Virus record (IMG/VR): IMGVR_UViG_3300006919_014344
Coordinates: 1 to 20,360 of that record
DNA length: 20,360 bases
Origin: a virus
Strand: one strand, 5' to 3'
Below the pieces are notes generated by a model, which did no database searches, was not told the origin of the DNA, and worked only from the letters and a program-made list of their open reading frames with translations. The translations under genes and the position numbers were made by a program. Of the stretch, positions 5,062-20,360 are shown in pieces. Position 1 is the first letter of the stretch. Each line of letters starts with the position of its first letter.

Positions 5062-5790
5062 ATGACTAGTAACCCACCTTCCTCTAAAGTTTTTTTAGCT
5101 ACCCCTTGTTATGGAGGAATGGTGTGTCAAGAATTCCTTCAAAGTGTATTGAAAATGCTTTACACATGCATGGTAAATAAGGTCGGCCTTCAGGTATTCA
5201 CTATTGGGAATGAAAGTTTAATTACACGAGGGAGGAATCAACTTGTGGCAGAATTTATGGCCTCAGATTGCTCTCATTTAATGTTTATTGATGCCGATAT
5301 AGAGTTTGATCCAGATGACGTATTAAAATTAATATCGCACGATAAGCCTATAGTTGTAGGAGCTTACCCGCTCAAGATTGAACCGATTAGTTACGTTATA
5401 AATACGGTTTCTGGAGAGCCAGAAAAAAATAAAAATTTAATTGAAGTCAAAGATGCGGGTACTGGGTTTATGATGATCAGAAGGGACGCTATAGAGTCAA
5501 TGCAGAAATCCTACCCAGAGCTTCATTATACGGGGGATTTAGCGGGAGATAGCTTCAGGCAGGACTTAATAGGTAAAGAAGATCATAAGGAAAAACTAAA
5601 GCAAAACCTATACAGCTTATTTGATACCTCTCACGACAAGGACGCGAATAACGCTTACCTATCAGAAGACTATACTTTTTGCAGGAGATGGCAAAGAATT
5701 AATGGTAAGATATGGTTAGATAGCACTATCAATCTTAATCATATTGGAAGAAAAATATACAAGGGCAATGTTTCTAAGATGTTTGAGTGA
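5062..5790 (+). CDS. GT-A type glycosyltransferase
   Basis: Soluble 242-residue enzyme expected to move a sugar from a nucleotide-sugar to an unknown acceptor. It opens with a beta strand and loop KVFLATPCYGG (9-19), typical of GT-A enzymes common in large phages, followed by SLITRGRNQLVAEFMAS (52-68) and the metal-binding DXD in LMFIDADIEFDPDDV (73-87, Asp77-Ala-Asp79). GAYPLK and GTGFMMIRRDAIE are further family-like stretches. A late region, DYTFCRRW, matches the position of the catalytic or acceptor-side acidic motif of GT2-like enzymes. The stop codon overlaps the GTG of the next gene (GTGA). Start at ATG is favoured by the TATAAT just upstream. Donor and acceptor unknown. Confidence 0.82.
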   Translation: MTSNPPSSKVFLATPCYGGMVCQEFLQSVLKMLYTCMVNKVGLQVFTIGNESLITRGRNQLVAEFMASDCSHLMFIDADIEFDPDDVLKLISHDKPIVVGAYPLKIEPISYVINTVSGEPEKNKNLIEVKDAGTGFMMIRRDAIESMQKSYPELHYTGDLAGDSFRQDLIGKEDHKEKLKQNLYSLFDTSHDKDANNAYLSEDYTFCRRWQRINGKIWLDSTINLNHIGRKIYKGNVSKMFE

Positions 5791-6404
5791 AGAATAATAT
5801 AATAGGAATATCAGGTGTGGCTGGCTCTGGTAAGGATTTATTCTATGAATTACTATCAGAAGAAGTGAAATGCAAAAGATTCTCCCTTGGAGACGAATTA
5901 AAAAAGGAGATGCGGTCTTATTGTATTGATAATTTTTCTATTGACCCATTAATTTGCTCTCGCAATGAAAAAAATCTAATAAGAAAGTGTTTAGTGTCCC
6001 ATGCGTCGATTAAAAGGCAGCTAACTGAAGGTAGGTATTGGCTAGAAAAAGTAGACCCTCAAATCAAGAGCCACATTTTTGAACAATTATTAACACACCA
6101 TGAGATACGTGAGTACTCATGCATTACCGATATTAGGTATAGTCAGTACAAGAACGATGAGGTTTCATGGTTAAAAAATGAACTAGGGGGTATATTAGTT
6201 CATATTTCACAATTTAAAATTATTAATTCAAAAAAAATATTTGTACCCCCAGCTAATGAGGATGAAGCATCCCAAGATGGTACACTAAAAAAACAAGCTG
6301 ACTATACCTACGAATGTCAGTTTGTAGAAGGCTCATCGGAGCATGTTAGAAAAACACTTAAACAGGGAATGATAAAAGATTTTTTACGATGTATAAAAAA
6401 ATAG
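5787..6404 (+). CDS. deoxynucleoside monophosphate kinase-like P-loop protein
   Basis: A 205-residue P-loop protein. Walker A is GVAGSGKD (10-17), near the N-terminus and followed by a lid/helix arrangement (FSLGDELKKEMRSYC) as in T4 gp1-type deoxynucleotide kinases. ITDIRYSQYKNDEVSWLK fits the Walker B-like Asp-Arg strand of that family (often T/SDVRFxNE). Such enzymes phosphorylate dNMPs to dNDPs for phage DNA synthesis, which fits dCMP deaminase and ribonucleotide reductase in the same window. The start is a GTG overlapping the preceding stop (GTGA), and there is no Shine-Dalgarno sequence. Substrate preference cannot be read, and phosphorylation of modified nucleotides is possible. Confidence 0.75.
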   Translation: MKNNIIGISGVAGSGKDLFYELLSEEVKCKRFSLGDELKKEMRSYCIDNFSIDPLICSRNEKNLIRKCLVSHASIKRQLTEGRYWLEKVDPQIKSHIFEQLLTHHEIREYSCITDIRYSQYKNDEVSWLKNELGGILVHISQFKIINSKKIFVPPANEDEASQDGTLKKQADYTYECQFVEGSSEHVRKTLKQGMIKDFLRCIKK

Positions 6405-6405
6405 T

Positions 6406-6434
6406 TTGACAGCCGTTCAATTTTTTACTATTCT
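6406..6434 (+). promoter_or_regulatory. promoter before the acidic-tail protein
   Basis: Consensus TTGACA (6406-6411), 17 bp, TATTCT (6429-6434). Predicted transcription start near 6441, two bases before ATG 6443, which excludes the in-frame TTG at 6434 as start and makes the mRNA leaderless. Confidence 0.7.
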
Positions 6435-6442
6435 TGATAATC

Positions 6443-6751
6443 ATGAGTGATTCAAATCAAAATTCAAAGGGCGGCGATTGGTCGAAACGTGAGATCGGAG
6501 CTTTATGGTTAAGAAAAAGCGCTTCGGGCAACAAGTACCTCTCAGGCCACATTACTTCAGGGGAAGACGGCGAAATTGAAGAAACTAAGGAGAGGGTTAT
6601 TGTTTTCGCTAATAAAGATAAGAAAAGCGATAAAGCCCCCGATTACAGAATCTACAGATCGGAGCCAAAGCAGGTCACTGAGACGGTTTCTAGTGAAGCT
6701 CAAACCTCCACTGACACTCAGCCTGAAGAAGATGACCTAGACGTTCTGTAA
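6443..6751 (+). CDS. small protein with acidic C-terminal tail, possibly ssDNA-binding
   Basis: A 102-residue soluble protein. The N-terminal half (WSKREIGALWLRKSASGNKY, then LSGHI, then ERVIVFANKDKKSDKAPDYRIY) resembles the DUF736-like small beta proteins found in phages and plasmids. The second half is low-complexity and acidic, ending EEDDLDVL. An acidic tail with a hydrophobic tip is how single-stranded DNA-binding proteins recruit partners, so an SSB-like role is a fair hypothesis, but no OB-fold can be shown by eye. ATG 6443 is chosen over TTG 6434 because the -10 box covers 6429-6434. It has its own strong promoter, consistent with high expression, and the next gene follows by one base. 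Confidence 0.72.
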   Translation: MSDSNQNSKGGDWSKREIGALWLRKSASGNKYLSGHITSGEDGEIEETKERVIVFANKDKKSDKAPDYRIYRSEPKQVTETVSSEAQTSTDTQPEEDDLDVL

Positions 6752-6752
6752 A

Positions 6753-7838
6753 GTGAGCTTTTCTCTAAATCTTCCATTAAATTCAGTCTCTTTTGGGCAA
6801 GTATCTACCTTGCTCATGAGAGGCTTTTTTAAGAAAAATCTTCACCCATGTCTTTTCCCTATAAGCGGTAGGATTGACATGTCTTCAGTTGGTGAAGATA
6901 AGCCATTTTTTGATTATATATCCAAATGCGCTTCTAAAGCGAATAAAGAGCACAGCAGGAATATACCGACGTTTAAATTATGGCATCTTAATTCTGGTAT
7001 AGACTCATTCTCTAAAGTAAATAATCTTCTTACATTTTATGAATTAGACCAGCCAACATCTTCGGAAATCAATACCGCACGAAATGCGGATAAATTATTT
7101 TTCACTAATAAATTCACGCAAAATATATTTAATCAATACGGGGTAGAAAGCACTATAATCCCCTTGGCTTTTGATAGGTATAGTTTTAAGAGGGTGAAAA
7201 AGAAGTTCTTTGAGGATGATAGAATAGTCTTTAACCTTTGCGGTAAATTCGAAAAAAGAAAGCATCACGAAAAAATTATAAAAGCTTGGCTTAATAAGTT
7301 CGGCAATGATAAAAAATACTACCTACAATGCTCGCTGTATAATTCTTTCATAGACGAAAAGAGAAATAGAGATAATTTCGTAAGGGCTGTTGGTGGTAAA
7401 AGCTATTCCAACGTGCAGTTCCTTGGACATATGCCAACTAATGATTTATATAATGATTATTTAAATTCTTCAAATATTATCATAGGTATGTCAGGTGGTG
7501 AAGGCTGGGGGTTACCAGAATTTCAATCACTAGCTTTAGGCAAACATGGTGTCATCTTGAATGCTCACGCTTATCAAGAGTGGGCTACTCCAGAAAACAG
7601 CGTACTTGTTGAACCTTCTGGTAAAACAGAAGTCTATGACGGGGTATTTTTCCACCCTAACCAAGAATGGAATCAAGGCAATATTTTCGACTTTGATGAG
7701 GATGACTTTATTTCTGGGTGTGAGGAAGCTATAAAAAGAGTAGAAGCGGAAAAGACTAACAATGAAGGCTTGAAAATTCAAGAAGATTTTTCACTAGAGA
7801 AAACTTTAGATAAGCTCCTGCCACTCATCGATGACTAA
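6753..7838 (+). CDS. GT-B glycosyltransferase (GT4-like)
   Basis: A 361-residue glycosyltransferase of the GT-B fold. The C-terminal Rossmann domain is clear: strand RIVFNLCGKFEKRKHHEKII (157-176), the usual start of the GT4 nucleotide-binding domain, then VQFLGHMPTNDLYNDYLNSS (221-240), and the donor-binding motif GGEGWGLPEFQSLALGK (248-264) with the Glu-x7-Glu-like arrangement partly kept (Glu250 and Glu256). The N-terminal acceptor domain is divergent, although IPTFKLWHLN and NKFTQNIFNQYGV fit. The start is GTG at 6753, one base after the previous stop. Donor and acceptor are unknown. It lies between a possible DNA-binding protein and two further glycan genes. Confidence 0.83.
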   Translation: MSFSLNLPLNSVSFGQVSTLLMRGFFKKNLHPCLFPISGRIDMSSVGEDKPFFDYISKCASKANKEHSRNIPTFKLWHLNSGIDSFSKVNNLLTFYELDQPTSSEINTARNADKLFFTNKFTQNIFNQYGVESTIIPLAFDRYSFKRVKKKFFEDDRIVFNLCGKFEKRKHHEKIIKAWLNKFGNDKKYYLQCSLYNSFIDEKRNRDNFVRAVGGKSYSNVQFLGHMPTNDLYNDYLNSSNIIIGMSGGEGWGLPEFQSLALGKHGVILNAHAYQEWATPENSVLVEPSGKTEVYDGVFFHPNQEWNQGNIFDFDEDDFISGCEEAIKRVEAEKTNNEGLKIQEDFSLEKTLDKLLPLIDD

Positions 7839-7840
7839 AA

Positions 7841-8245
7841 ATGCCCACTTATATCTACCAGCATCCCAAGACTAATGAGATTGTAGAAGTTAGTCAAAAA
7901 ATTTCAGAAGCTCACGAGTACACCGACGGTCAAGGCGTTCAATGGAATAGGGTGTTCACCGTCCCTTACGCCAGTATACCTAATATGACTAGGATTGAAG
8001 CTGGGTCAGAGCAAGATTTCATGAAAAGAACTGAAGGTTTTGATGGTACTATGGGCGATTTAATGGATTTATCAAAAGATTTAAGTAATAAAAGAATCGA
8101 AGAAAGAGGGGATGGCACGGATAATGTCAAACAAAAATTCTTCAAAGATTACTCTAAAGATAGAAACGGGCTAAAACACCTAGACGATAAACCTGCGGTA
8201 GACCCCAAGTATAAACCTAATTCTGACGGGGTAATAGAAATATGA
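7841..8245 (+). CDS. small phage protein with FmdB-like N-terminus lacking zinc cysteines
   Basis: A 134-residue hydrophilic protein. The opening MPTYIYQHPKTNEIVEVSQ and the later WNRVFTVPYASI resemble FmdB-type zinc-ribbon proteins and their phage relatives (MPTYxYxC). The cysteines that hold zinc in FmdB are absent; no cysteine occurs at all. The C-terminal half is charged and probably flexible (RIEERGDGTDNVKQKFFKDY). It starts two bases after the GT-B gene, and its stop overlaps the next ATG (ATGA). The function is unknown. In other large phages such small proteins lie among glycosyltransferase or structural genes, so context does not settle it. Confidence 0.7.
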   Translation: MPTYIYQHPKTNEIVEVSQKISEAHEYTDGQGVQWNRVFTVPYASIPNMTRIEAGSEQDFMKRTEGFDGTMGDLMDLSKDLSNKRIEERGDGTDNVKQKFFKDYSKDRNGLKHLDDKPAVDPKYKPNSDGVIEI

Positions 8246-9507
8246 GATTTTCTATCTTCACCCCCTCGCATAATCTCAAAAGAATTGATCGCACTATAGA
8301 CAGTGTAGCCAATCAATCCTTTAAAGATTTTGAATGGGTAATCTGCCTTAATAACGAAGCTTTAACTCAGGATGTAGAGTTAGAAGCCAAGTTAATGGAT
8401 AAAGGAATTAATTATAAAATATTAAAATGGGAAGGTGATACCGATAAGATTGGAGCTCTTAAAAAATTTTGCTGCACTAACTCATCTGGAGAATTATTAT
8501 TAGAATTGGATCACGATGACGAATTATCTCCCGACTGTTTAGAAGAGATAAATAAAGCTCACGATGAACAAAATGCTGATTTTTATTACTCTGACGATAT
8601 AGACATAGTAGAAGAAACGGGCAAATCAATCGCACCTTACTCAGAGGACGGAGGGTGGAAATATTACACTTGCTCGCGCTCAGGAATGACGGCAACAAGC
8701 GCATTCCCGCCCAATCCCTTAAGTTTTGGTTATATATGGTACGCTCCTAATCATGTTAGAGTTTGGAGGAAGGAATTTTATGAGAGAATAGGTGGGCATG
8801 ATGAAAGCATGGATGTGTTGGATGACCACGACTTGCTATGTAGGACTTACATTGAAGGCAAGGTCCATCATATAGGAAAACCCCTATATATTTATTGGAG
8901 GCATAATGAAAATACTTGTTATGGAGAAAAGAATGCTAAGATTCAAGAATTAACAAAGCAACTCCATGATAAATACATTCAAGGTTTGACAGTAAAGTGG
9001 AGCAACTTAAACGACCTAAAAAAAGTAGATTTGTGCTGTCATCAATACAAGGCTGAAGGGTTTATCGGGGTGGATGGTTACCCTTACCCTAATGTAGATG
9101 TTGTATGCGATCTCGATGAGCCTAACTGGCCCTTTGAAGACGGTAGCGTGGGAGTGTTTAGATTGCAAGATGCACTTGAGCACTTAAAAAACCCGATCCA
9201 AACCATGAAAGAGATTTATCGGTGTCTAGCACCGAACGGCTGGGCTCTTATAAATGTCCCCAACACTGATGGTAGAGGGGCATTTCAAGACCCTACTCAT
9301 GTTTCATTTTGGAATAGTAACAGCTTTTGGTACTACACTAAATCCGCTCAGGCTCAATTCATTAATACCCCAGTTAAATTTAAATTAGCTCGAATTGAAA
9401 ATTATTATCCTTCAGATTTTCACAAAATGCACTGGATTGAATACACAAAAGCTCATTTAATGAAACTAGAAGACGGTGTTATACCCGCTGGCGGAAGAGA
9501 AATCTAA
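8242..9507 (+). CDS. GT2 glycosyltransferase fused to a SAM-dependent methyltransferase
   Basis: A two-domain protein of 421 residues. Residues 1 to about 225 form a GT2 (GT-A) domain: FSIFTPSHNLKRIDRTIDSV (3-22), SFKDFEWVICLNN (26-38), the metal-binding ELDHDDE (88-94), YSDDIDI (116-122) and the late GGHDESMDVLDDHDLLCR (184-201). Residues about 260-400 look like a class I methyltransferase: GFIGVDGY (273-280, the acidic residue that binds SAM ribose), WPFEDGSVGVFRLQDALEHL (296-315) and the motif around IYRCLAPNGWALINVP (325-340). The glycine-rich SAM loop before it is not recognisable (KVDLCCHQYKAEG), so the methyltransferase may be divergent. The fusion suggests that a sugar is added and the sugar or acceptor then methylated. 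Acceptor unknown. Confidence 0.83.
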   Translation: MRFSIFTPSHNLKRIDRTIDSVANQSFKDFEWVICLNNEALTQDVELEAKLMDKGINYKILKWEGDTDKIGALKKFCCTNSSGELLLELDHDDELSPDCLEEINKAHDEQNADFYYSDDIDIVEETGKSIAPYSEDGGWKYYTCSRSGMTATSAFPPNPLSFGYIWYAPNHVRVWRKEFYERIGGHDESMDVLDDHDLLCRTYIEGKVHHIGKPLYIYWRHNENTCYGEKNAKIQELTKQLHDKYIQGLTVKWSNLNDLKKVDLCCHQYKAEGFIGVDGYPYPNVDVVCDLDEPNWPFEDGSVGVFRLQDALEHLKNPIQTMKEIYRCLAPNGWALINVPNTDGRGAFQDPTHVSFWNSNSFWYYTKSAQAQFINTPVKFKLARIENYYPSDFHKMHWIEYTKAHLMKLEDGVIPAGGREI

Positions 9508-13434: not shown

Positions 13435-13469
13435 TTGACCTTATCTCAAAAAGCACCTAAAATAAGGTG
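13435..13469 (+). promoter_or_regulatory. promoter of the sugar operon with internal inverted repeats
   Basis: TTGACC (13435-13440), 17 bp, TAAAAT (13458-13463), with the GTG start at 13469 five bases on, so transcription should begin at the start codon. A 7-bp inverted repeat (ACCTTAT 13438-13444, ATAAGGT 13462-13468) and a 5-bp one (CACCT 13454-13458, AGGTG 13465-13469) cover the promoter and could be an operator. Confidence 0.7.
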
Positions 13470-14329
13470 TGAGATATGTTATCGTAGCTGATTGGTGGCC
13501 TGAAGATTTTAAAGGGGGCGGCGGTAATCACTCTGGCGGCGCTGAATTGAGTGATTCAATTCTTTTTTCAATTCTCCAAGAAAAGAAAGAAAACGTAGCA
13601 AAATATAGCAGTCCCGACCTTACTGCTGAAATACTAGATAGCGAAAAAGACTCTACGTTTATAATTTCTAATTTCTTTAATATTCACCCGTATGTCTTGG
13701 AAAGAATTAAAAATGAGTTTAAATACATACTTTATTGCCATGATTACAAATTTGTGGCTCATATGCAGCCCCAAAGATATGAAAATTTTATAGTACCGAA
13801 ACATGAATTAATATGTGTTGACTTATTTGAAAATGCACAAGCTGTAATCTGTCAGAGTAGCTTACAGGAAAAAATACATCTCGATAATTTAGGCTTAAAT
13901 AATATAATTAATTTTTCTGGAAACTTGTGGAGTAACGAAATACTCAATCTAATGCAAGCCCTGTCGGAAAATACCTCAAATCGCAACGAGCGTTGTTCAA
14001 TAGTTAAATCGCCCTACCCAGAAAAAGGCGTAGCTGAAGCTGTGATTTTTTGCCAAAAAAACAAGTTTGATTACGATTTAATAGGTCATCGAGATTATAA
14101 AACATTCTTGCATCAAATCGCATCCAATAAAGCGCTAGTGTTTTACGCTAAACTTCCAGAAACTTGCGGTAGAGTGGTGGTAGAAGCTAAAATGATGGGC
14201 GTAGTTACGCACTCTACAGACCTTTTAGGAGCATCCCATGAACCTTGGTATAACCTAGCAAGTAAAGAACTCATTGAAGTCATGAGATCAAAGCATGACG
14301 AAATACACAAAATTATAACTTCTTCATGA
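13469..14329 (+). CDS. GT-B fold glycosyltransferase
   Basis: A 286-residue glycosyltransferase, first gene of the sugar operon. The N-terminal YVIVADWWPEDFKGGGGNHS and GGAELSD (23-29) match the acceptor-side loop of GT4-like enzymes, where GGAE is typical. YILYCHDY and the following ENAQAVICQSSLQEKI (121-136) fit the middle. The donor-binding region is LPETCGRVVVEAKMMGVV (229-246), where Glu231 and Glu239 give the E-x7-E pattern. It is shorter than most GT4 proteins (350 or more), mainly in the second domain. GTG is the start, fixed by the promoter, whose -10 ends five bases upstream. The stop overlaps the epimerase ATG (ATGA). Substrates unknown. Confidence 0.75.
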   Translation: MRYVIVADWWPEDFKGGGGNHSGGAELSDSILFSILQEKKENVAKYSSPDLTAEILDSEKDSTFIISNFFNIHPYVLERIKNEFKYILYCHDYKFVAHMQPQRYENFIVPKHELICVDLFENAQAVICQSSLQEKIHLDNLGLNNIINFSGNLWSNEILNLMQALSENTSNRNERCSIVKSPYPEKGVAEAVIFCQKNKFDYDLIGHRDYKTFLHQIASNKALVFYAKLPETCGRVVVEAKMMGVVTHSTDLLGASHEPWYNLASKELIEVMRSKHDEIHKIITSS

Positions 14330-15258
14330 AAAGATCATTAATTACAGGAGGCTGTGGCTTCATTGGGAGTCATTTAGTAGATACGCTTATAAACAAAGGC
14401 CATCAAGTTTATGTAATTGATAATTTATCTTCGGAGTGTAATGAGCAATTTCACTTCAATAAAGAAGCTACTTATTTACATGAAGATATTAAAAATTATG
14501 ATAAGATAGAGCATTTTTTTAAAAATGTGGATTATGTTTTTCATTTAGCGGCTGAGTCAAGAATTCAACCTACCTTGAACCGCCCTCAAGAAACATGCAT
14601 GACTAATTTTGTAGGAACTTGTAATGTATTAGAGGCTGCAAAAAACTCAGGCGTTTCTAGATTTTTTTATTCTAGCACTTCCTCTGCTTATGGTAGAAAA
14701 AATTGCAGCATAGCACATAAAGTTCTTAATAAGCCCTGCGAACTAAGAGAGGATATGCCAAGGGATTGTCTTAACCCGTACTCGGTTTCTAAAGTGGCGG
14801 CTGAAGATTTATGTAAAATTTATTCCTCCTTATGGAATCTTAATACTATTACATTTAGGTATTTTAACGTTTATGGAGAAAGGCAACCGACTAAAGGTAA
14901 ATATGCTCCAGTTCTAGGTCTTTTTATAAAACAGAAAAATGAAAATAAACCCATGACAATTGTAGGGGATGGAAAACAACGTCGAGACTTCACGCATGTA
15001 AGTGACATAGTTAAGGCTAATATTTTAGCTATGGAATCTGAAGATATTGCAGGTGTTTCTGGAGAAATCTTTAACGTAGGAACAGGAACTAATCATTCAA
15101 TGCTAGAAATTGCTTCCATGATAGGTGATAAGGTAGAACACTTACCACCAAGATTAGGTGAGGCTCAAGAAACTTTAGCTGATATTAGTAAAATCTCGCA
15201 TTATTTCGGCTACCAGCCGTCTGTAGCAGTGGAAGATTGGATTTCTAAAAACAAATGA
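14326..15258 (+). CDS. NAD-dependent nucleotide-sugar epimerase/dehydratase (extended SDR)
   Basis: Extended short-chain dehydrogenase of 310 residues. The NAD-binding GGCGFIGSHLVDTL (8-21) and the acidic VIDNLS (30-35) show NAD rather than NADP use. The catalytic residues are YSVSK (Tyr152, Lys156) with the serine/threonine cluster YSSTSSAYG (115-123). RYFNVYGERQ, GDGKQRRDFTHVSDI and NVGTG are the sugar-nucleotide binding motifs of the UDP-glucose 4-epimerase/UDP-glucuronate group. The downstream UDP-galactopyranose mutase needs UDP-galactose, so a 4-epimerase making UDP-Gal is a good guess, but UDP-GlcA 4-epimerase or decarboxylase is equally open by sequence. It overlaps both neighbours by 4 bases, a coupled operon. 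Confidence 0.88.
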   Translation: MKRSLITGGCGFIGSHLVDTLINKGHQVYVIDNLSSECNEQFHFNKEATYLHEDIKNYDKIEHFFKNVDYVFHLAAESRIQPTLNRPQETCMTNFVGTCNVLEAAKNSGVSRFFYSSTSSAYGRKNCSIAHKVLNKPCELREDMPRDCLNPYSVSKVAAEDLCKIYSSLWNLNTITFRYFNVYGERQPTKGKYAPVLGLFIKQKNENKPMTIVGDGKQRRDFTHVSDIVKANILAMESEDIAGVSGEIFNVGTGTNHSMLEIASMIGDKVEHLPPRLGEAQETLADISKISHYFGYQPSVAVEDWISKNK

Positions 15259-16232
15259 AAGCAATCATAGCGGGATGTGGACTAAGCGGGATAACATCCG
15301 CCATCTTACTGAAAGAAAAAGGCTATGATGTAGAAATATTTGATACAAGGCATCATATAGGTGGTAATTGTTACGACCATAAAGTAGAAGGCGTAATGGT
15401 TCATAAGTATGGCCCTCACGGATTTCATACTACAAATAAAAATGTATGGGACTTTTTAAACAGGTTTTCTTCCTTCAATAAAGTATGCCTCAGAGTTCAT
15501 GCTAATACCCCTGAAGGCATTATTCCATTGCCTTATTCCCCCGCGACGGAAAAGATAATTGGATACAAGACGCCTCAAGAAATAAAAGAACTTATATTTA
15601 AAGATTATAGTGAAAAAATGTGGGGCATTCCTTGGGAAAAATTTCCAAAATCTATAAGTGGAAGAGTTCCCACTAAAAGGGACGATCCAAGCTTATGCTT
15701 TCATCTAGACGAGTATCAAGGAATTCCCTCAAACGGTTACACTGAGATGTTTAAGAATATGCTTAGTGGAATTAAAATTAATTTAAATTCTTCACCTATA
15801 GAATATAAAAAACAAAAAAAAGACTTACTAATATACACGGGTAAGATTGACGAATTTTTTGATTACAAATATGGCTGGCTAGAATACAGGTCTTTGAAAA
15901 TTCAATTTGAAACAGCTAAACGTAGACCTGACATTTTTCAATTAAATGAATGCAATAAGAATCCTTGGACTCGTAGCGTTGATCACTCCCACTGGCATGA
16001 GCAAGACATAAAGCAAACGGTTATTTCTAGAGAATATCCTTGTGAACATGACAAAAATAACATACCATTTTATCCTAAACCTTTTGGAGATAATCAAAAA
16101 AAATATAAAAAATACAAAAGGATTGCAGACTCTCTAGCTAATGTTATATTTGTAGGTAGGTTAGCAACTTATAAATATTTAGATATGGATGATGCTATAG
16201 CTCAAGTTTTCAATAAGTTAAAAAATATATGA
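15255..16232 (+). CDS. glf: UDP-galactopyranose mutase
   Basis: Flavoenzyme that interconverts UDP-galactopyranose and UDP-galactofuranose, the donor of Galf residues. The FAD motif AGCGLSGITSAILLKEKGYD (6-25) is followed by IGGNCYD (35-41) and YGPHGFHT, all hallmarks of the family. SGRVPTKRDDPSLCFHLDEY, then QGIPSNGYTEMF, matches the substrate-binding region, and the C-terminal FVGRLATYKYLDMDDAI carries the conserved Arg and Tyr next to the flavin. It has 325 residues against roughly 370-390 in bacteria, with the shortening spread through the middle. Galf is absent from vertebrates and common in bacterial and phage-decorated glycans. Its stop overlaps the ATG of the GDP-mannose dehydratase gene. 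Confidence 0.92.
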   Translation: MKAIIAGCGLSGITSAILLKEKGYDVEIFDTRHHIGGNCYDHKVEGVMVHKYGPHGFHTTNKNVWDFLNRFSSFNKVCLRVHANTPEGIIPLPYSPATEKIIGYKTPQEIKELIFKDYSEKMWGIPWEKFPKSISGRVPTKRDDPSLCFHLDEYQGIPSNGYTEMFKNMLSGIKINLNSSPIEYKKQKKDLLIYTGKIDEFFDYKYGWLEYRSLKIQFETAKRRPDIFQLNECNKNPWTRSVDHSHWHEQDIKQTVISREYPCEHDKNNIPFYPKPFGDNQKKYKKYKRIADSLANVIFVGRLATYKYLDMDDAIAQVFNKLKNI

Positions 16233-17272
16233 AAAAAGTTCTAGTAACAGGCACTCTAGGTCAAGATGGTGCTAACATGTGTGAGTTTTTATTGGAAAAT
16301 ACTGACCATGAAGTATATGGGATGATAAGAAGGGCTGCGTCTCCTAATTTTAAAAATTGTAAAAAATTCATTAATCACGAAAGATTTAAATTAGTTTACG
16401 GCGACCTAACTGATGAGGTCAGTATTTCCAGTTTGGTTAAAGATATACAACCTGATTATTTTATTAATTTTGCAGCCAATAGCTTTGTAGGTTGTAGCTG
16501 GAAAATGCCTCTTCAAGTTTTCGACACGAATACAACTGGAGTGTTAAGATGTTTGGAAGCGATTAAAGATTATCAACCTAAATGTAAATTTTACAGTGCT
16601 GGAAGTAGCGAAGAGTTTGGGGATGTAGACTACTCTCCGCAAGACTTAAAACACCCCCTTAAACCTAGAAGCCCCTACGGAGCCTCTAAATGTGCCGCTA
16701 GGCATTTAGTAAAAGTTTATAGGGAATCGTATAATATTTTCGCTGTTCACGCCACCCTCTTTAATCATGAAGGCACAAAGAGAGGGGAAGAATTTGTTAC
16801 TAGAAAAATTACCAAGGGGGTAGCTAGGATTAAAAAATCTTTAGAAAATAATCAAAAAATTGAGCCCCTAGAACTAGGTAATATTTATGCAAAGAGAGAT
16901 TGGAGTGATTCTGAAGATTTTGTAGAAGGGGTATGGTTAATGATGACGCAAGAAAAGCCTAGAGACTATCTCTTGGCCAGCGGAGAGACGCATACAATTA
17001 AAGAATTCGTAGAAAGAGCTTTTCTGGCTGCTGGTATAGAGGGTAACTGGACTGAGGTAGAAAATGATCCTATAAAAACAAAATTCCATAGAAACTCCGC
17101 CGAAGGAGAAACTTTGGTTAAAATCAGCGAAGAATTTTACAGACCCAATGAGGTGGAATTATTATTGGGCGACCCATCTAGAATAAAACTTGAGCTTGGA
17201 TGGAGACCCAAAGTTTCTTTTTGTAATTTAGTCAAAAAGATGGTACAACATGATCTGAATGAGCAAGAATGA
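16229..17272 (+). CDS. gmd: GDP-mannose 4,6-dehydratase
   Basis: Converts GDP-D-mannose to GDP-4-keto-6-deoxymannose, precursor of GDP-fucose, GDP-rhamnose or GDP-perosamine. Signatures are VTGTLGQDGANMCEFLLE (6-23; the GQDG loop is typical of Gmd), YGMIRRAASPN (30-40, the Arg pair that binds the NADP phosphate), YSAGSSEEFGDV (122-133), and RSPYGASK (147-154) with Tyr150 and Lys154. TLFNHEGTKRGEEFVTRKIT and GNIYAKRDWSDSEDFVEGVW are near-diagnostic for the family. Length 347 is normal. No reductase or epimerase (Fcl), Rmd or perosamine synthase follows in the window, so the final sugar is unknown. The stop lies inside the next gene, which starts 14 bases earlier. Confidence 0.93.
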   Translation: MKKVLVTGTLGQDGANMCEFLLENTDHEVYGMIRRAASPNFKNCKKFINHERFKLVYGDLTDEVSISSLVKDIQPDYFINFAANSFVGCSWKMPLQVFDTNTTGVLRCLEAIKDYQPKCKFYSAGSSEEFGDVDYSPQDLKHPLKPRSPYGASKCAARHLVKVYRESYNIFAVHATLFNHEGTKRGEEFVTRKITKGVARIKKSLENNQKIEPLELGNIYAKRDWSDSEDFVEGVWLMMTQEKPRDYLLASGETHTIKEFVERAFLAAGIEGNWTEVENDPIKTKFHRNSAEGETLVKISEEFYRPNEVELLLGDPSRIKLELGWRPKVSFCNLVKKMVQHDLNEQE

Positions 17273-17690
17273 ATTTAAAATAGGTAGAAAAATTAAAAGT
17301 CGCACGACTAAAAAACAGGTACAGCCTAAAAATCAATTCGCGGTTATAATTTGGCAGCTAATAAAAGACCCTAATGACTTTTCCGCAGTAGATTGGGGTA
17401 GGGAGACTAAGGCTGCTAAAGGCTTATTTGATACTTACCCAAATATTAAATTCTGGAGTCAAATTAATTTAGGGTTTTATTTGAATTCTTTAAATTTTTT
17501 TAATGGTAAAGACGGAATAAAATACCTAAGAAGTGCTGTTGATGAATTTGAGAGAAATTTAAAAATAAATTTCCAACAACCTGAAAAAGAAGAATTCAAT
17601 GATGACGCTACTTTTCATAAAAATATAGATAAATCAACTAAACCAGTGTCTTTAAGTTCTATTTTTAAAAATGGCAAAAAAACAAGATAA
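17259..17690 (+). CDS. hypothetical basic protein, 143 residues
   Basis: I do not recognise this protein. The first 25 residues are basic and probably disordered (KIGRKIKSRTTKKQVQPKN). A compact middle (FAVIIWQLIKDPNDFSAVDWGRETKAAKGLF, shown here only as start and end of the region about 28-58) leads into FWSQINLGFYLNSLNFF and a helical stretch. The C-terminus is charged again and ends SSIFKNGKKTR. The DW and WSQ motifs and the absence of a signal suggest a cytoplasmic or virion DNA-associated protein, but nothing decides this. It overlaps gmd by 14 bases and the next glycosyltransferase by 20 bases, so its translation is likely coupled to both. Confidence 0.65.
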   Translation: MSKNEFKIGRKIKSRTTKKQVQPKNQFAVIIWQLIKDPNDFSAVDWGRETKAAKGLFDTYPNIKFWSQINLGFYLNSLNFFNGKDGIKYLRSAVDEFERNLKINFQQPEKEEFNDDATFHKNIDKSTKPVSLSSIFKNGKKTR

Positions 17691-18945
17691 AGTAAAAATC
17701 TGTTTATGGACACATGTTCAAAACGAATCCTCTATCATAGAAAAGATGTTAGAGAGTGCCGCTGATTATATTGATTACTGGGTGATAGTCGATAACGGTT
17801 CCACAGACGGAACTCAAGGAATAATAGAAAATTTTTTTAAAAAACATAATATAGATGGTAAGCTTTATCAGAGTAAAATTGGCTGGAAGGGGCACGGCAT
17901 AAATAGGCAGCATTCTTGGGAGTTTTTAGAAAATACGGATCACGGCTGCGATTACATTTTAAGAATTGATGCTGACGAAGGAATAGTGGTTGAGGAAGAT
18001 TTTGATTGGTCAATTATCCCCTCCCAAGAAGCGTGGTCCATTATTTATCAATCAGGTAATCATTGCGTTCCTAGAATGTGGATGTGGAAATGGGGTCTAC
18101 CTTGGTACTGGGCAGACGATGTAGCCCACGAAACAATACACCTCGAAGACGGGAGAGAGCCCAAACAGCCAAAAAATATGCCTTTAGGTTTCAAGCATAT
18201 TTCTTTAGGTAATGGAAATAGTTACGAAAACCCCATAAAATACATTCAAGATATTTTAAAACTGGAGAATCAACTACACGAAAGATTTAGGGATGGTAGC
18301 GATATAAAAGCTGAAAGATATCATTTATTTTATCTTTGTAAGTCGTTTAATTATACAGGGTACAGCTTGGATAATGAAAATATTTACAAATACTTTCCAT
18401 ACGGTAGAGATCATTTGAAAATTTTCTTAGAGAGAGGTATATTTTATTATGATAAATTTCTTTCTATGTTCGAGGAGACAGGCGAAGGGTGGTATGTTAG
18501 ATATTTAAAAGCCGAATTACTTCAGAGGCTTAGTAGATCAGAGGATTCTATAAAAGAATATATTACTTCCCATCAACTACGCCCCGACAGAGGTGAACCC
18601 TTAGCACGCCTCTTCTGGCACTACTACTATGACTCAGATTGGGATAAAGCATTTGATTTTGGCAATAAATTAAAAGAATTAAAATGCCCCATAGAACACG
18701 ACGCTTGGCAGTTAGAAATAAATGCTTATTATGAAAATAATTGGAAAATAAAAGACGCTTTAGGAGTTGTTTATGAGAGGCTTGGCTCGCAAAATAGGGA
18801 TATTAAATTATTAAATGAATCAAAAAAAATATTTGAGAGCCTAGTGATTGAGTATGAAAAAGGAAAAATACCACAAGGGGATGACGGCGAGAGATTAAAA
18901 AATAATATAAAATTTTTAAACGGTAAAATAAAAGAGGCACAATAA
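17671..18945 (+). CDS. GT2 glycosyltransferase with helical C-terminal extension
   Basis: A 424-residue protein. The N-terminal GT2 domain shows VIVDNGSTDGTQGIIENFF (38-56), the classic nucleotide-binding loop, and the metal-binding YILRIDADEGIV (95-106, Asp100-Ala-Asp102). It is of the subgroup that acts on a glycan or peptide with an aromatic-rich acceptor region (MWMWKWGLPWYW around 135-150). Residues about 250-420 are helical and repeat-like (RYLKAELLQRLSRSEDSIKE, then the stretch ARLFWHYYYDSDWDKAFDFG), resembling tetratricopeptide repeats that may hold a protein partner. The ATG lies within the end of the upstream gene. RecA follows after 3 bp. Substrates unknown. Confidence 0.83.
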   Translation: MAKKQDKVKICLWTHVQNESSIIEKMLESAADYIDYWVIVDNGSTDGTQGIIENFFKKHNIDGKLYQSKIGWKGHGINRQHSWEFLENTDHGCDYILRIDADEGIVVEEDFDWSIIPSQEAWSIIYQSGNHCVPRMWMWKWGLPWYWADDVAHETIHLEDGREPKQPKNMPLGFKHISLGNGNSYENPIKYIQDILKLENQLHERFRDGSDIKAERYHLFYLCKSFNYTGYSLDNENIYKYFPYGRDHLKIFLERGIFYYDKFLSMFEETGEGWYVRYLKAELLQRLSRSEDSIKEYITSHQLRPDRGEPLARLFWHYYYDSDWDKAFDFGNKLKELKCPIEHDAWQLEINAYYENNWKIKDALGVVYERLGSQNRDIKLLNESKKIFESLVIEYEKGKIPQGDDGERLKNNIKFLNGKIKEAQ

Positions 18946-18948
18946 AAC

Positions 18949-20046
18949 ATGAGAAAAAAGAAAAAAGAAGTGGCAGAAGGATATACGGCTGTAAATCAGA
19001 TTCAAGATTATTTAAAACAAAACCAATCAGACCATTACAACTTTGAGGAAGAAAGAGATTATACTGTTTCTAGCGGTAGCTTAAAATTAGATATTGAAAT
19101 GGGTGGTGGTATAAAACCAGGTGTCATTAGAGCTTCTGGTGTTACAGAGGGAGGGAAAACATCTTGCGCCTTGTCTTTTGCAAGAAATTTCCAGAAAATA
19201 GAAAACTCTATGATTGTCTATGTAAAATCCGAAGGTAGATTATCCGATGAAATGTTAGAGCGTTCAGGGGTGGACACTAGCGAAGAAAAGTTTTTTATTT
19301 ATAAATGTAATATTTTTGAATCAGTAATTGATTTGTTAAGGCAATTAGTTCACAACAATCCTGATGATACTCGTTACATGTTCATTATTGATTCGATGGA
19401 CGCATTAGTCCCTAGGGGTGACTTGGAGAAAGGCTCAGATGAGGCTGTTAAAGTGGCTGGTGGCTCTTTACTAACTTCAGATTTTCTAAAAAGAATGGCC
19501 CTATCCTTTGCAAGCAAGGGTCATATTTGCTACATGATCTCTCAGGTAAGAAGTAATATTAAGATTAACCCTTATGAAAAAGGTGACCCACAAATTACTA
19601 ATGCATCAGGGGGTAACGCTGCACTTCATTACAGTGATTGGATTCTAGAGTTTCAACCAAGATTTAACAAAGATTTAATATCAACACAACCAAACGGAAA
19701 AGGCGATATTCTAGGCCATTGGTGTAAGATTATATTTAGAAAAACTGCTAATGAAAAAACAGGTATAGAAGTTAAATATCCTATTAGGTACGGTAGAAAA
19801 AATGGTAAAAGTATATGGGCTGAATACGAAGTCGTAGAAATGTTACAAATGTTTGACTTAGCTCAAGCTAAAGGGGCTTGGGTAACTATAAACGATGAGA
19901 TTATTGAAGAGGTCAAAGAAAAGCTTAATTTGGAGTTTAAAAAACAACATCAAGGCGTAGACAACCTAAGAAAATACTTTGAAGAAAATAAAGAAATAGG
20001 TAAATACTTATTTAGCAAATTTATTGAAGTATTAAAAAAGTCTTGA
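18949..20046 (+). CDS. RecA/UvsX-type recombinase
   Basis: ATP-dependent strand-exchange protein for recombination-dependent replication and repair. The core matches RecA: SGSLKLDIEMGGGIKPGVI (42-60), Walker A GVTEGGKT (64-71, Lys70, Thr71), the catalytic Glu95 in VKSEGRLSDEML, Walker B-like YMFIIDSMDAL (143-153), and the switch region ISQVRSNI (197-204) leading to the DNA-binding L2 loop region and NASGGNAALHYSD (218-230). The N-terminal 30 residues are charged and Lys-rich. The C-terminal part (about 290-365) is phage-specific and helical. The 365-residue length is between E. coli RecA (352) and T4 UvsX (391). The start ATG is three bases after the glycosyltransferase stop. The only gene between it and the tmRNA is their shared intergenic spacer of 34 bp. 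Confidence 0.93.
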   Translation: MRKKKKEVAEGYTAVNQIQDYLKQNQSDHYNFEEERDYTVSSGSLKLDIEMGGGIKPGVIRASGVTEGGKTSCALSFARNFQKIENSMIVYVKSEGRLSDEMLERSGVDTSEEKFFIYKCNIFESVIDLLRQLVHNNPDDTRYMFIIDSMDALVPRGDLEKGSDEAVKVAGGSLLTSDFLKRMALSFASKGHICYMISQVRSNIKINPYEKGDPQITNASGGNAALHYSDWILEFQPRFNKDLISTQPNGKGDILGHWCKIIFRKTANEKTGIEVKYPIRYGRKNGKSIWAEYEVVEMLQMFDLAQAKGAWVTINDEIIEEVKEKLNLEFKKQHQGVDNLRKYFEENKEIGKYLFSKFIEVLKKS

Positions 20047-20080
20047 TTTAGATTCAAAAAAACAGTGTAATATACTTTAA
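20043..20080 (+). promoter_or_regulatory. possible promoter of the tmRNA gene
   Basis: TATACT (20071-20076) ends four to five bases before the predicted tmRNA 5' end at 20081. At 17 bp upstream the -35 is the weak TTAGAT (20048-20053). An A7 run sits between them, as before nrdA. Confidence 0.45.
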
Positions 20081-20360
20081 GGGGGCGTACTGGTATCGAT
20101 TTAATATCAGACGCTAAAATAGCAAGTCAAGGATGATAGTTGGCCTTGTAAAAATCTATCTAGGTATTCAACTGCCAAAACTGAAGTTGATATGGCTCCT
20201 TCCCTAGCTGAAGCTGACGCGATTCTCGCTAAGTTCGGTTGGGCCGAAGAGGCTGCTGTAGCTGCGTAAGCTACCCGTCCTACTCTAGATGCTCGTTAAG
20301 GAGCTAGGGCGTCGATAACGAGCAAAAAAAGCTAGGAATGAGATGGTCTAGTCTAAATAA
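20081..20360 (+). ncRNA. ssrA: tmRNA (one-piece, 3' part beyond the window)
   Basis: Rescues stalled ribosomes and tags their product for proteolysis. The 5' end is GGGGGCGTACTGGTATCG, matching the acceptor stem and the conserved CUGG-UUCGA-like start of one-piece tmRNA. Pseudoknot 1 is clear: CAAGG (20128-20132) with CCTTG (20144-20148), crossed by GATAG (20135-20139) with CTATC (20156-20160). Thirteen bases later an Ala codon (20174) opens a 31-codon reading frame ending AEEAAVAA and TAA (20267-20269). A second pseudoknot follows: 20276-20282 with 20305-20311, crossed by GCTCGTT (20291-20297) with AACGAGC (20317-20323). The tRNA-like 3' end lies outside, so its length is unknown. The AVAA end is a normal ClpXP-type signal. 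A length of 31 residues is long compared with the usual 10-15. Confidence 0.88.

Follow-up and report, generated by a model that had tools for sequence, protein, structure and literature searches.

What use is a tmRNA to a phage? One IMG/VR virus record (IMGVR_UViG_3300006919_014344) puts this question in a particular form: what might a phage do with a tmRNA whose tag is roughly three times as long as usual? The stretch analyzed here, called the window throughout, comprises 20,360 nucleotides and ends inside this gene. An earlier note made from its sequence alone had proposed a one-piece tmRNA with two interlocked pseudoknots and a 31-residue tag that begins at an alanine codon 13 nt after pseudoknot 1. 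These proposals have held up against mapped coordinates, a covariance model and complete genes from relatives. A virus-specific, long and selected tag suggests that these phages need a tag of their own beyond ribosome rescue. The joint explanation that we favor, and regard as probable, is that the feature, a real phage tmRNA with the anatomy read from its sequence, is functional, that the core of its long tag is selected, that the middle segment of the tag provides a phage-specific contact, and that a predicted hairpin acts as a shield or spacer.

Anatomy of the gene and its surroundings

The tmRNA interval (Table 1) matches the Rfam model RF00023 with 36.1 bits (E 5.3e-13) over model positions 1 to 240 of 374 and is flagged as cut off at its 3′ end. 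This covariance model had been recommended as a check, as had ARAGORN, which makes no tmRNA call on the window. The silence of ARAGORN and a score below the curated gathering score of 47 are both expected because the gene is truncated. The last base of the record, 20360, is also the last base of the feature, such that the window holds the 5′ three-quarters of a one-piece gene, and the absence of its 3′ half is probably due to the end of the contig alone. Pseudoknot 1, the resume codon, a frame with its stop in helix 5, and pseudoknot 2 can all be located in the window. Known tmRNAs carry the stop codon on helix 5 as well (PMC1168896).

Table 1. Features at and near the tmRNA gene of the window, and tags of five further viral tmRNA families
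Feature	Position	Strand	Size	Basis
RecA/UvsX-like recombinase gene, neighbor directly upstream, outside the tmRNA	18949..20046	+		Pfam RecA 1.9e-15; phrog_97 UvsX-like 7.5e-32
Promoter-like element GTGTAATAT shortly before the tmRNA gene	20065..20073	+		GTGTA(A/T) conserved across loci
tmRNA gene (ssrA), one-piece, ending with the contig at about model position 240/374	20081..20360	+		Rfam RF00023; 84-87% identity to nearest tmRNAs of relatives
5′ half of tRNA-like domain (acceptor strand GGGGGCG, D region)	20081..20102	+		Alignment with complete relatives
Pseudoknot 1	20128..20160	+		CAAGG 20128-20132/CCTTG 20144-20148 interlocked with GATAG 20135-20139/CTATC 20156-20160
Tag reading frame and stop: AKTEVDMAPSLAEADAILAKFGWAEEAAVAA	20174..20269	+	31 residues	Translation; 52 distinct tmRNAs retain the frame, the context of the resume codon and the core; core dN/dS ~0.15 (average over related sequences)
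Predicted RNA hairpin within the frame (inner, best supported part 20204-20242)	20194..20254	+		-25.4 kcal/mol; dinucleotide z -2.1
Helix-5-like hairpin GTAGCTGCGTAAGCTAC, stop codon in loop	20258..20274	+		Sequence and fold
Pseudoknot 2	20279..20323	+		CCTACTC 20279-20285/GAGCTAGG 20301-20308 interlocked with GCTCGTTA 20291-20298/TAACGAGC 20316-20323
Family B tag AKTAKYKGHISARVSLVEMTASVA			24 residues	
Family C tag AEDNVISYDFSYDDVAVAA			19-21 residues	
Family D tag GKNKSRVVAFSSKAEKLALAA			20-21 residues	
Family E tag AKRNLAKVSFLSARKNKSGNALVAA			25-28 residues	
Family F tag ADDDMSDLLAEAEYIFNNADEFLGGVEEECYALAA			34-35 residues	

The missing part of the gene can be seen in relatives. With the upstream RecA/UvsX-like recombinase as the query, 80 relatives were obtained from viral contigs, and a tmRNA lies inside the fetched flank in 23 of them. 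Complete genes, 44 in number, are about 400 to 460 nt long and have a CCA end (for example, L007 7142-7546 and L002 5927-6333). Six complete genes among the first twelve loci score 123 to 145 bits with the standard Rfam model, above its gathering score. The G3-U70 alanine identity pair, whose 5′ side is GGG in the window, is kept in 43 of the 44 complete genes, and both sides change together in acceptor pairs 4 and 6 and in T-stem pairs 1 and 2. The CCA end, the G3-U70 pair and these compensatory stem changes therefore identify the gene as a standard one-piece tmRNA. Absence of a 3′ tRNA-like half just downstream had been named as grounds for abandoning the assignment; the half is present in the complete relatives, beyond the point where the window ends. 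A permuted (two-piece) tmRNA was also considered and rejected, as model RF04321 gives 14.9 bits (E 0.62, gathering score 47) and the standard order is found in all complete relatives.

The window is not alone in breaking inside or at the tmRNA. In addition to its break at 20360, contigs break in this way at L003 7447, L005 4891, L118 7342 and L105 1, probably because sequence common to co-occurring phages confuses assembly.

The recombinase gene is the direct upstream neighbor of the tmRNA in only 16 of 45 relatives. The promoter-like GTGTA(A/T) accompanies the tmRNA in different genome contexts. It lies in the 30 nt that precede the gene at 33 of 45 loci (32 of them at 13 to 17 nt), versus 14 of 532 background windows. 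An HNH/homing-endonuclease-like gene (phrog_559, phrog_9084) lies about 10 nt past the tmRNA at L164 16411-16827, equivalent to L007 7556-7972, and such a neighbor might help the tmRNA move between phages. The window also holds many glycan genes (UDP-glucose dehydrogenase-like, epimerases, glycosyltransferases) at 1101-2003, 5062-9507 and 13469-18945, around a class I ribonucleotide reductase pair. When recA, terminase and NrdA were used to look for a host, all cultured relatives proved distant.

The long tag and its conserved core

Translation of the window from the resume codon GCC at 20174, which lies 13 nt past pseudoknot 1, to the TAA stop at 20267-20269 yields a tag of exactly 31 residues, as had been proposed, compared with the usual 10. 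When 52 distinct viral tmRNAs, drawn from loci reached via recA and from two pattern scans, are aligned, a nearly invariant core emerges: APS(L/V)xEAD(A/E)ILAx(F/H/Y)G. The core peptide of the conserved tag, APSLAEADAILAKFGW, is a concrete molecule with which binding partners could be tested. Its A, S, E, A, D, I, L and A residues are invariant, proline is present in 51 of the 52 sequences, and serine is specified by either TCN or AGC codons. The later positions hold K, R or Q (one A), followed by F, H, Y or L and then almost always G. Third codon positions of the core vary and first and second positions are fixed, with a mean pairwise dN/dS of about 0.15, which is an average over a tree because the sequences are related.

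The core is present in all 23 tmRNAs that were reached via recA, for which the tag did not serve as the query, with L044 carrying ALS instead of APS. It also persists in six diverged tmRNAs (L148, L105, L095, L091, L133 and L116), in which both ends of the tag differ and family-profile scores fall to 37 to 111 bits versus about 400 for close members. These six were found through the core and hence speak to its persistence, not to its frequency. Judged by comparison of codons, the core is under purifying selection at the protein level across a large group of uncultivated phages. The tail that we predict would be added by the tmRNA of a complete relative (e.g., L007 7142-7546) is ANNIVDMAPSLDEADAILAKFGWAEEAAVAA.

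The ends of the tags are more variable. A hydrophobic-Ala-Ala end (LAA, VAA or MAA), the criterion for a ClpXP-type degron, occurs in 31 of 41 distinct tags, and the tag of the window ends in VAA. The ten tags that have no Ala-Ala end, some of which finish with LVE, MAV, ALV or ELV, argue against ClpXP reading every member of the family. This variability also bears on the alphaproteobacterial affinity that the earlier note had read from the ending AEEAAVAA, a suggestion that finds no support here. The end changes within the phage family (EESLQLAA, QEAALAA, ALLLVE, SNLALV), the likeness to the Caulobacter tag is confined to this variable stretch, and the gene layout is standard rather than permuted.

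A degenerate pattern of the core matched 59 stretches in viral contigs. Applied to genomes from 84,980 species of bacteria and archaea, it gave one chance match only, so that its absence from bacteria holds at the sensitivity of a strict pattern and of a collection restricted to contigs of at least 3 kb. The single cellular match falls in an unrelated open frame of Trinickia, a genome whose own tmRNA tag is ANDNSFAVAA. In cultured phages, no homologues of the 31-residue tag were found, nor any tmRNA whose match covers more than 17% of the length, and searches of phages and plasmids for similar tmRNAs returned nothing past short tRNA-like pieces. A tag attributed to phage Bxz1 gave no match as a query.

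The window's family, which we call A and whose pattern was the only one used in the scan of bacterial genomes, is accompanied by others. A scan of viral contigs with a pattern for the tRNA-like domain (L169-L266) uncovered at least five further viral families of one-piece tmRNA (B to F; Table 1), each with its own long conserved tag of 19 to 35 residues. Family B is found, among others, in the contigs of L072, L073 and L079, whose RecA proteins are about 50% identical to that of the window; the tag type thus appears to follow the phage lineage. Resemblances such as EA..I... and VEEE...LAA hint that family F may be distantly related to family A. L261 carries a further viral tmRNA tag, isolated and 33 residues long: ADEANDCPAGLLAQAEAIFANPDAVLNAELAVA.

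A predicted hairpin within the tag frame

Folding predictions, which are pseudoknot-free, indicate that the tag frame probably contains a hairpin. Its core is kept in the full-length fold of all 36 of 36 complete relatives, with a mean of 14 expected pairs between its halves. An initial z of -20 for this element, computed against synonymous recodings that follow phage codon usage, was too extreme because both GC content and relatedness inflate it. GC-matched tests took its place, and hairpin statistics shrink when GC content is matched and relatedness is considered. The inner region still folds better than the average GC-matched synonymous recoding in 98% of 43 distinct sequences, with a mean z of -2.4 and p <0.05 in 65%. 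For the window itself, the same test gives p 0.025 for the inner part and 0.12 to 0.22 for longer stretches. No folding excess over GC-matched synonymous recodings was detected for L091 and L116. These controls offer moderate evidence for the predicted hairpin, with exceptions.

The two parts of the stem differ in how they are maintained. Pairing in the apical stem is preserved through codon choices that are atypical for these phages (CTC and the G-ending GAG and GCG) and through a compensatory change in L144/L145. In the lower stem, standard pairs reach 82.5%, compared with 17 to 49% for slid partners and 80.5% for shuffled partners, and covariation is weak given the last of these values.

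Folding of the frame is not confined to the window's family. In five other viral families, 41 to 60% of frame bases are predicted to pair within the frame (GC-matched p 0.01 to 0.14 for representatives). The figure for the window's family is 55%, versus 12% in 30 Pseudomonadota tmRNAs with tags of 10 to 15 residues, a contrast that is due in part to frame length alone. The message of known tmRNAs consists of a single strand plus helix 5 with the stop codon (PMC3968760), and a short energy-predicted helix 'm' overlaps the resume codon (PMC1168896). That helix is a different element from the hairpin considered here. That hairpins are predicted in six viral tag families suggests protection or tuning of the tmRNA message by phages.

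Both the peptide and the RNA structure are probably constrained, if the statistics are read together. It could be proposed instead that only the peptide matters, acting as a degron or adaptor ligand that is long and specific to the lineage, and that the hairpin arises as a side effect of GC-rich codons and particular amino acids. Such a proposal fits the strong conservation at the protein level, the retention of serine across TCN and AGC codons, the moderate size of the GC-matched folding support and the case of L091, which has the peptide without the hairpin excess. We nevertheless consider it unlikely, since nearly all distinct core regions fold better than their average GC-matched recoding, the apical stem shows unusual codons and a compensatory change, and folding is also predicted in the five other viral families, whose peptides differ.

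The converse, that only the RNA matters and that the additional residues are passengers of a structural hairpin inserted into the message, draws on the same folded frames shared by six families with different tag peptides. It appears quite improbable to us, because the fixed first and second codon positions, the low dN/dS and the retention of the core peptide in strongly diverged tmRNAs all point to selection on the protein product.

Possible function and relation to known systems

What partners might such a tag have? No SmpB gene was found in 50 phage records and no Lon gene in 24, many of these records being fragments. A ClpP-family gene is present in 10 of 24 tag-carrying records versus 4 of 20 related records that lack it. 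A phage-encoded partner protease was thus set aside as a candidate, as the ClpP-family gene is not linked to the tag and neither Lon nor SmpB was found in these records. The ClpP-family gene encodes 240 to 280 amino acids and has the head maturation protease family phrog_94 as its best match. A ClpP-family protein with a charged N-terminal extension was noted in 14 of 44 phage records (L154-L161, L162 8693-9472, L164 9244-10002), and in one phage the ClpP-family gene lies amid sugar genes and not structural ones. A search for a T4-type prohead protease gave no match in its controls.

It seems reasonable to suppose, from known biochemistry, that host alanyl-tRNA synthetase would charge the phage tmRNA with alanine and that the RNA would work with host SmpB, in line with the phage records described above. 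During infection, the tmRNA would enter stalled ribosomes, and trapped peptides would come to end in the long tag. The usual (L/V/M)AA end might then be read by host ClpXP, and the conserved middle segment might add a phage-specific contact, perhaps with an adaptor, a second protease or a retention factor. The earlier note had likewise raised the possibilities that a phage copy could replace the host tag and that a longer tag might divert proteins to another protease. The hairpin, which starts about 20 nt past the resume codon, probably shields or spaces a frame that would otherwise be single-stranded, for example against endoribonucleases that cut tmRNA. Endoribonuclease toxins are known to cut single-stranded RNA, including tmRNA, and to spare duplexes (PMC5408214), which makes protection by the hairpin a testable idea. 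More tentatively, and with somewhat more doubt than confidence, we propose that several uncultivated phage lineages lengthened the tmRNA message in the same manner, combining a dual-coding hairpin with a lineage-specific tag and thereby altering how stable the rescue RNA is, or how it is loaded, as well as what becomes of rescued proteins in infected cells.

The phage RNA could alternatively be a decoy, sequestering host SmpB or blocking trans-translation in the host, an idea discussed for the tRNA-domain-only RNA of mycobacteriophage DS6A (PMC4131195, PMC11915505). The lack of a detected SmpB gene in the 50 records would suit a decoy. However, a complete frame, a stop codon and a selected tag make little sense for one, and we judge this possibility to be very improbable.

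That translation resumes further in, giving a tag of ordinary length, is an idea to which we assign almost no weight: although ARAGORN starts L004, L035, L043, L077 and others at EADEILA... with 18 to 22 residues, even this shorter reading leaves about 20 residues, and the alignment rules out an ordinary length, since the resume codon, which specifies alanine (rarely glycine), is conserved together with the sequence before it and the N-terminal residues ANxxVDM.

ARAGORN truncates or misplaces the tags of L004, L035, L043, L050, L067, L077, L192 and L220, either starting at EADEILA... or reporting VTSYSGCSLKG. Catalogues of phage tags built in this way may therefore be wrong for this group.

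Taken together with its complete relatives, the tmRNA of the window shares with the one-piece tmRNA of Escherichia coli (ssrA, RF00023) its tRNA-like ends, G3-U70 pair, pseudoknot 1, alanine resume codon, message, helix 5 with the stop codon, pseudoknot 2 and length of about 400 nt. It departs from standard bacterial tmRNAs in its 31-residue tag, compared with 10 to 15 residues in the 30 Pseudomonadota controls. Tag length alone is not unprecedented, as reported tags span 8 to 35 residues (PMC3968760) and most often have 10 (PMC11915505). Phage tmRNAs are likewise already known, for example in mycobacteriophage Bxz1 and Bacillus phage G (PMC4131195), and they occur in about 2% of phage genomes (PMC9004378). 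The Bxz1 and phage G tmRNAs resemble the present one in being phage-encoded without a phage SmpB, a likeness that concerns the genes and not the tags. In the open-access literature, we found no papers on these tags or on a hairpin in the message of phage tmRNA. What is new is a virus-specific, strongly conserved long tag, together with a probable dual constraint on peptide and RNA.

The marine and aquatic phage tmRNAs of a 2022 survey are mostly two-piece (PMC9004378), whereas the tmRNA described here is one-piece. The two-piece tmRNAs of alphaproteobacteria and phage Melnitz (PMC9004378) are similar in that marine or aquatic phages carry them and in the tag end (AEEAAVAA here, AEEFAVAA in Caulobacter), and they differ in gene order, which is standard here; the permuted model scores 14.9 bits on the truncated window, compared with 36.1 for the standard model. 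The tRNA-domain-only tmRNA of DS6A is likewise a phage gene aimed at trans-translation (PMC4131195, PMC11915505). DS6A lacks a tag frame, and its presumed role is inhibition, whereas the frame here is complete and conserved.

The bacteria with the extended Mycoplasma/Mesoplasma ssrA tag are not known to have ClpXP. That tag, reportedly read by Lon (Gur and Sauer 2008; Ge and Karzai 2009, cited in PMC11986505), is an earlier example of a long tag whose protease partner has changed. The Mycoplasma/Mesoplasma tag is cellular, whereas the phages described here, with Lon in none of 24 records, have tags that mostly keep the ClpXP-type AA end.
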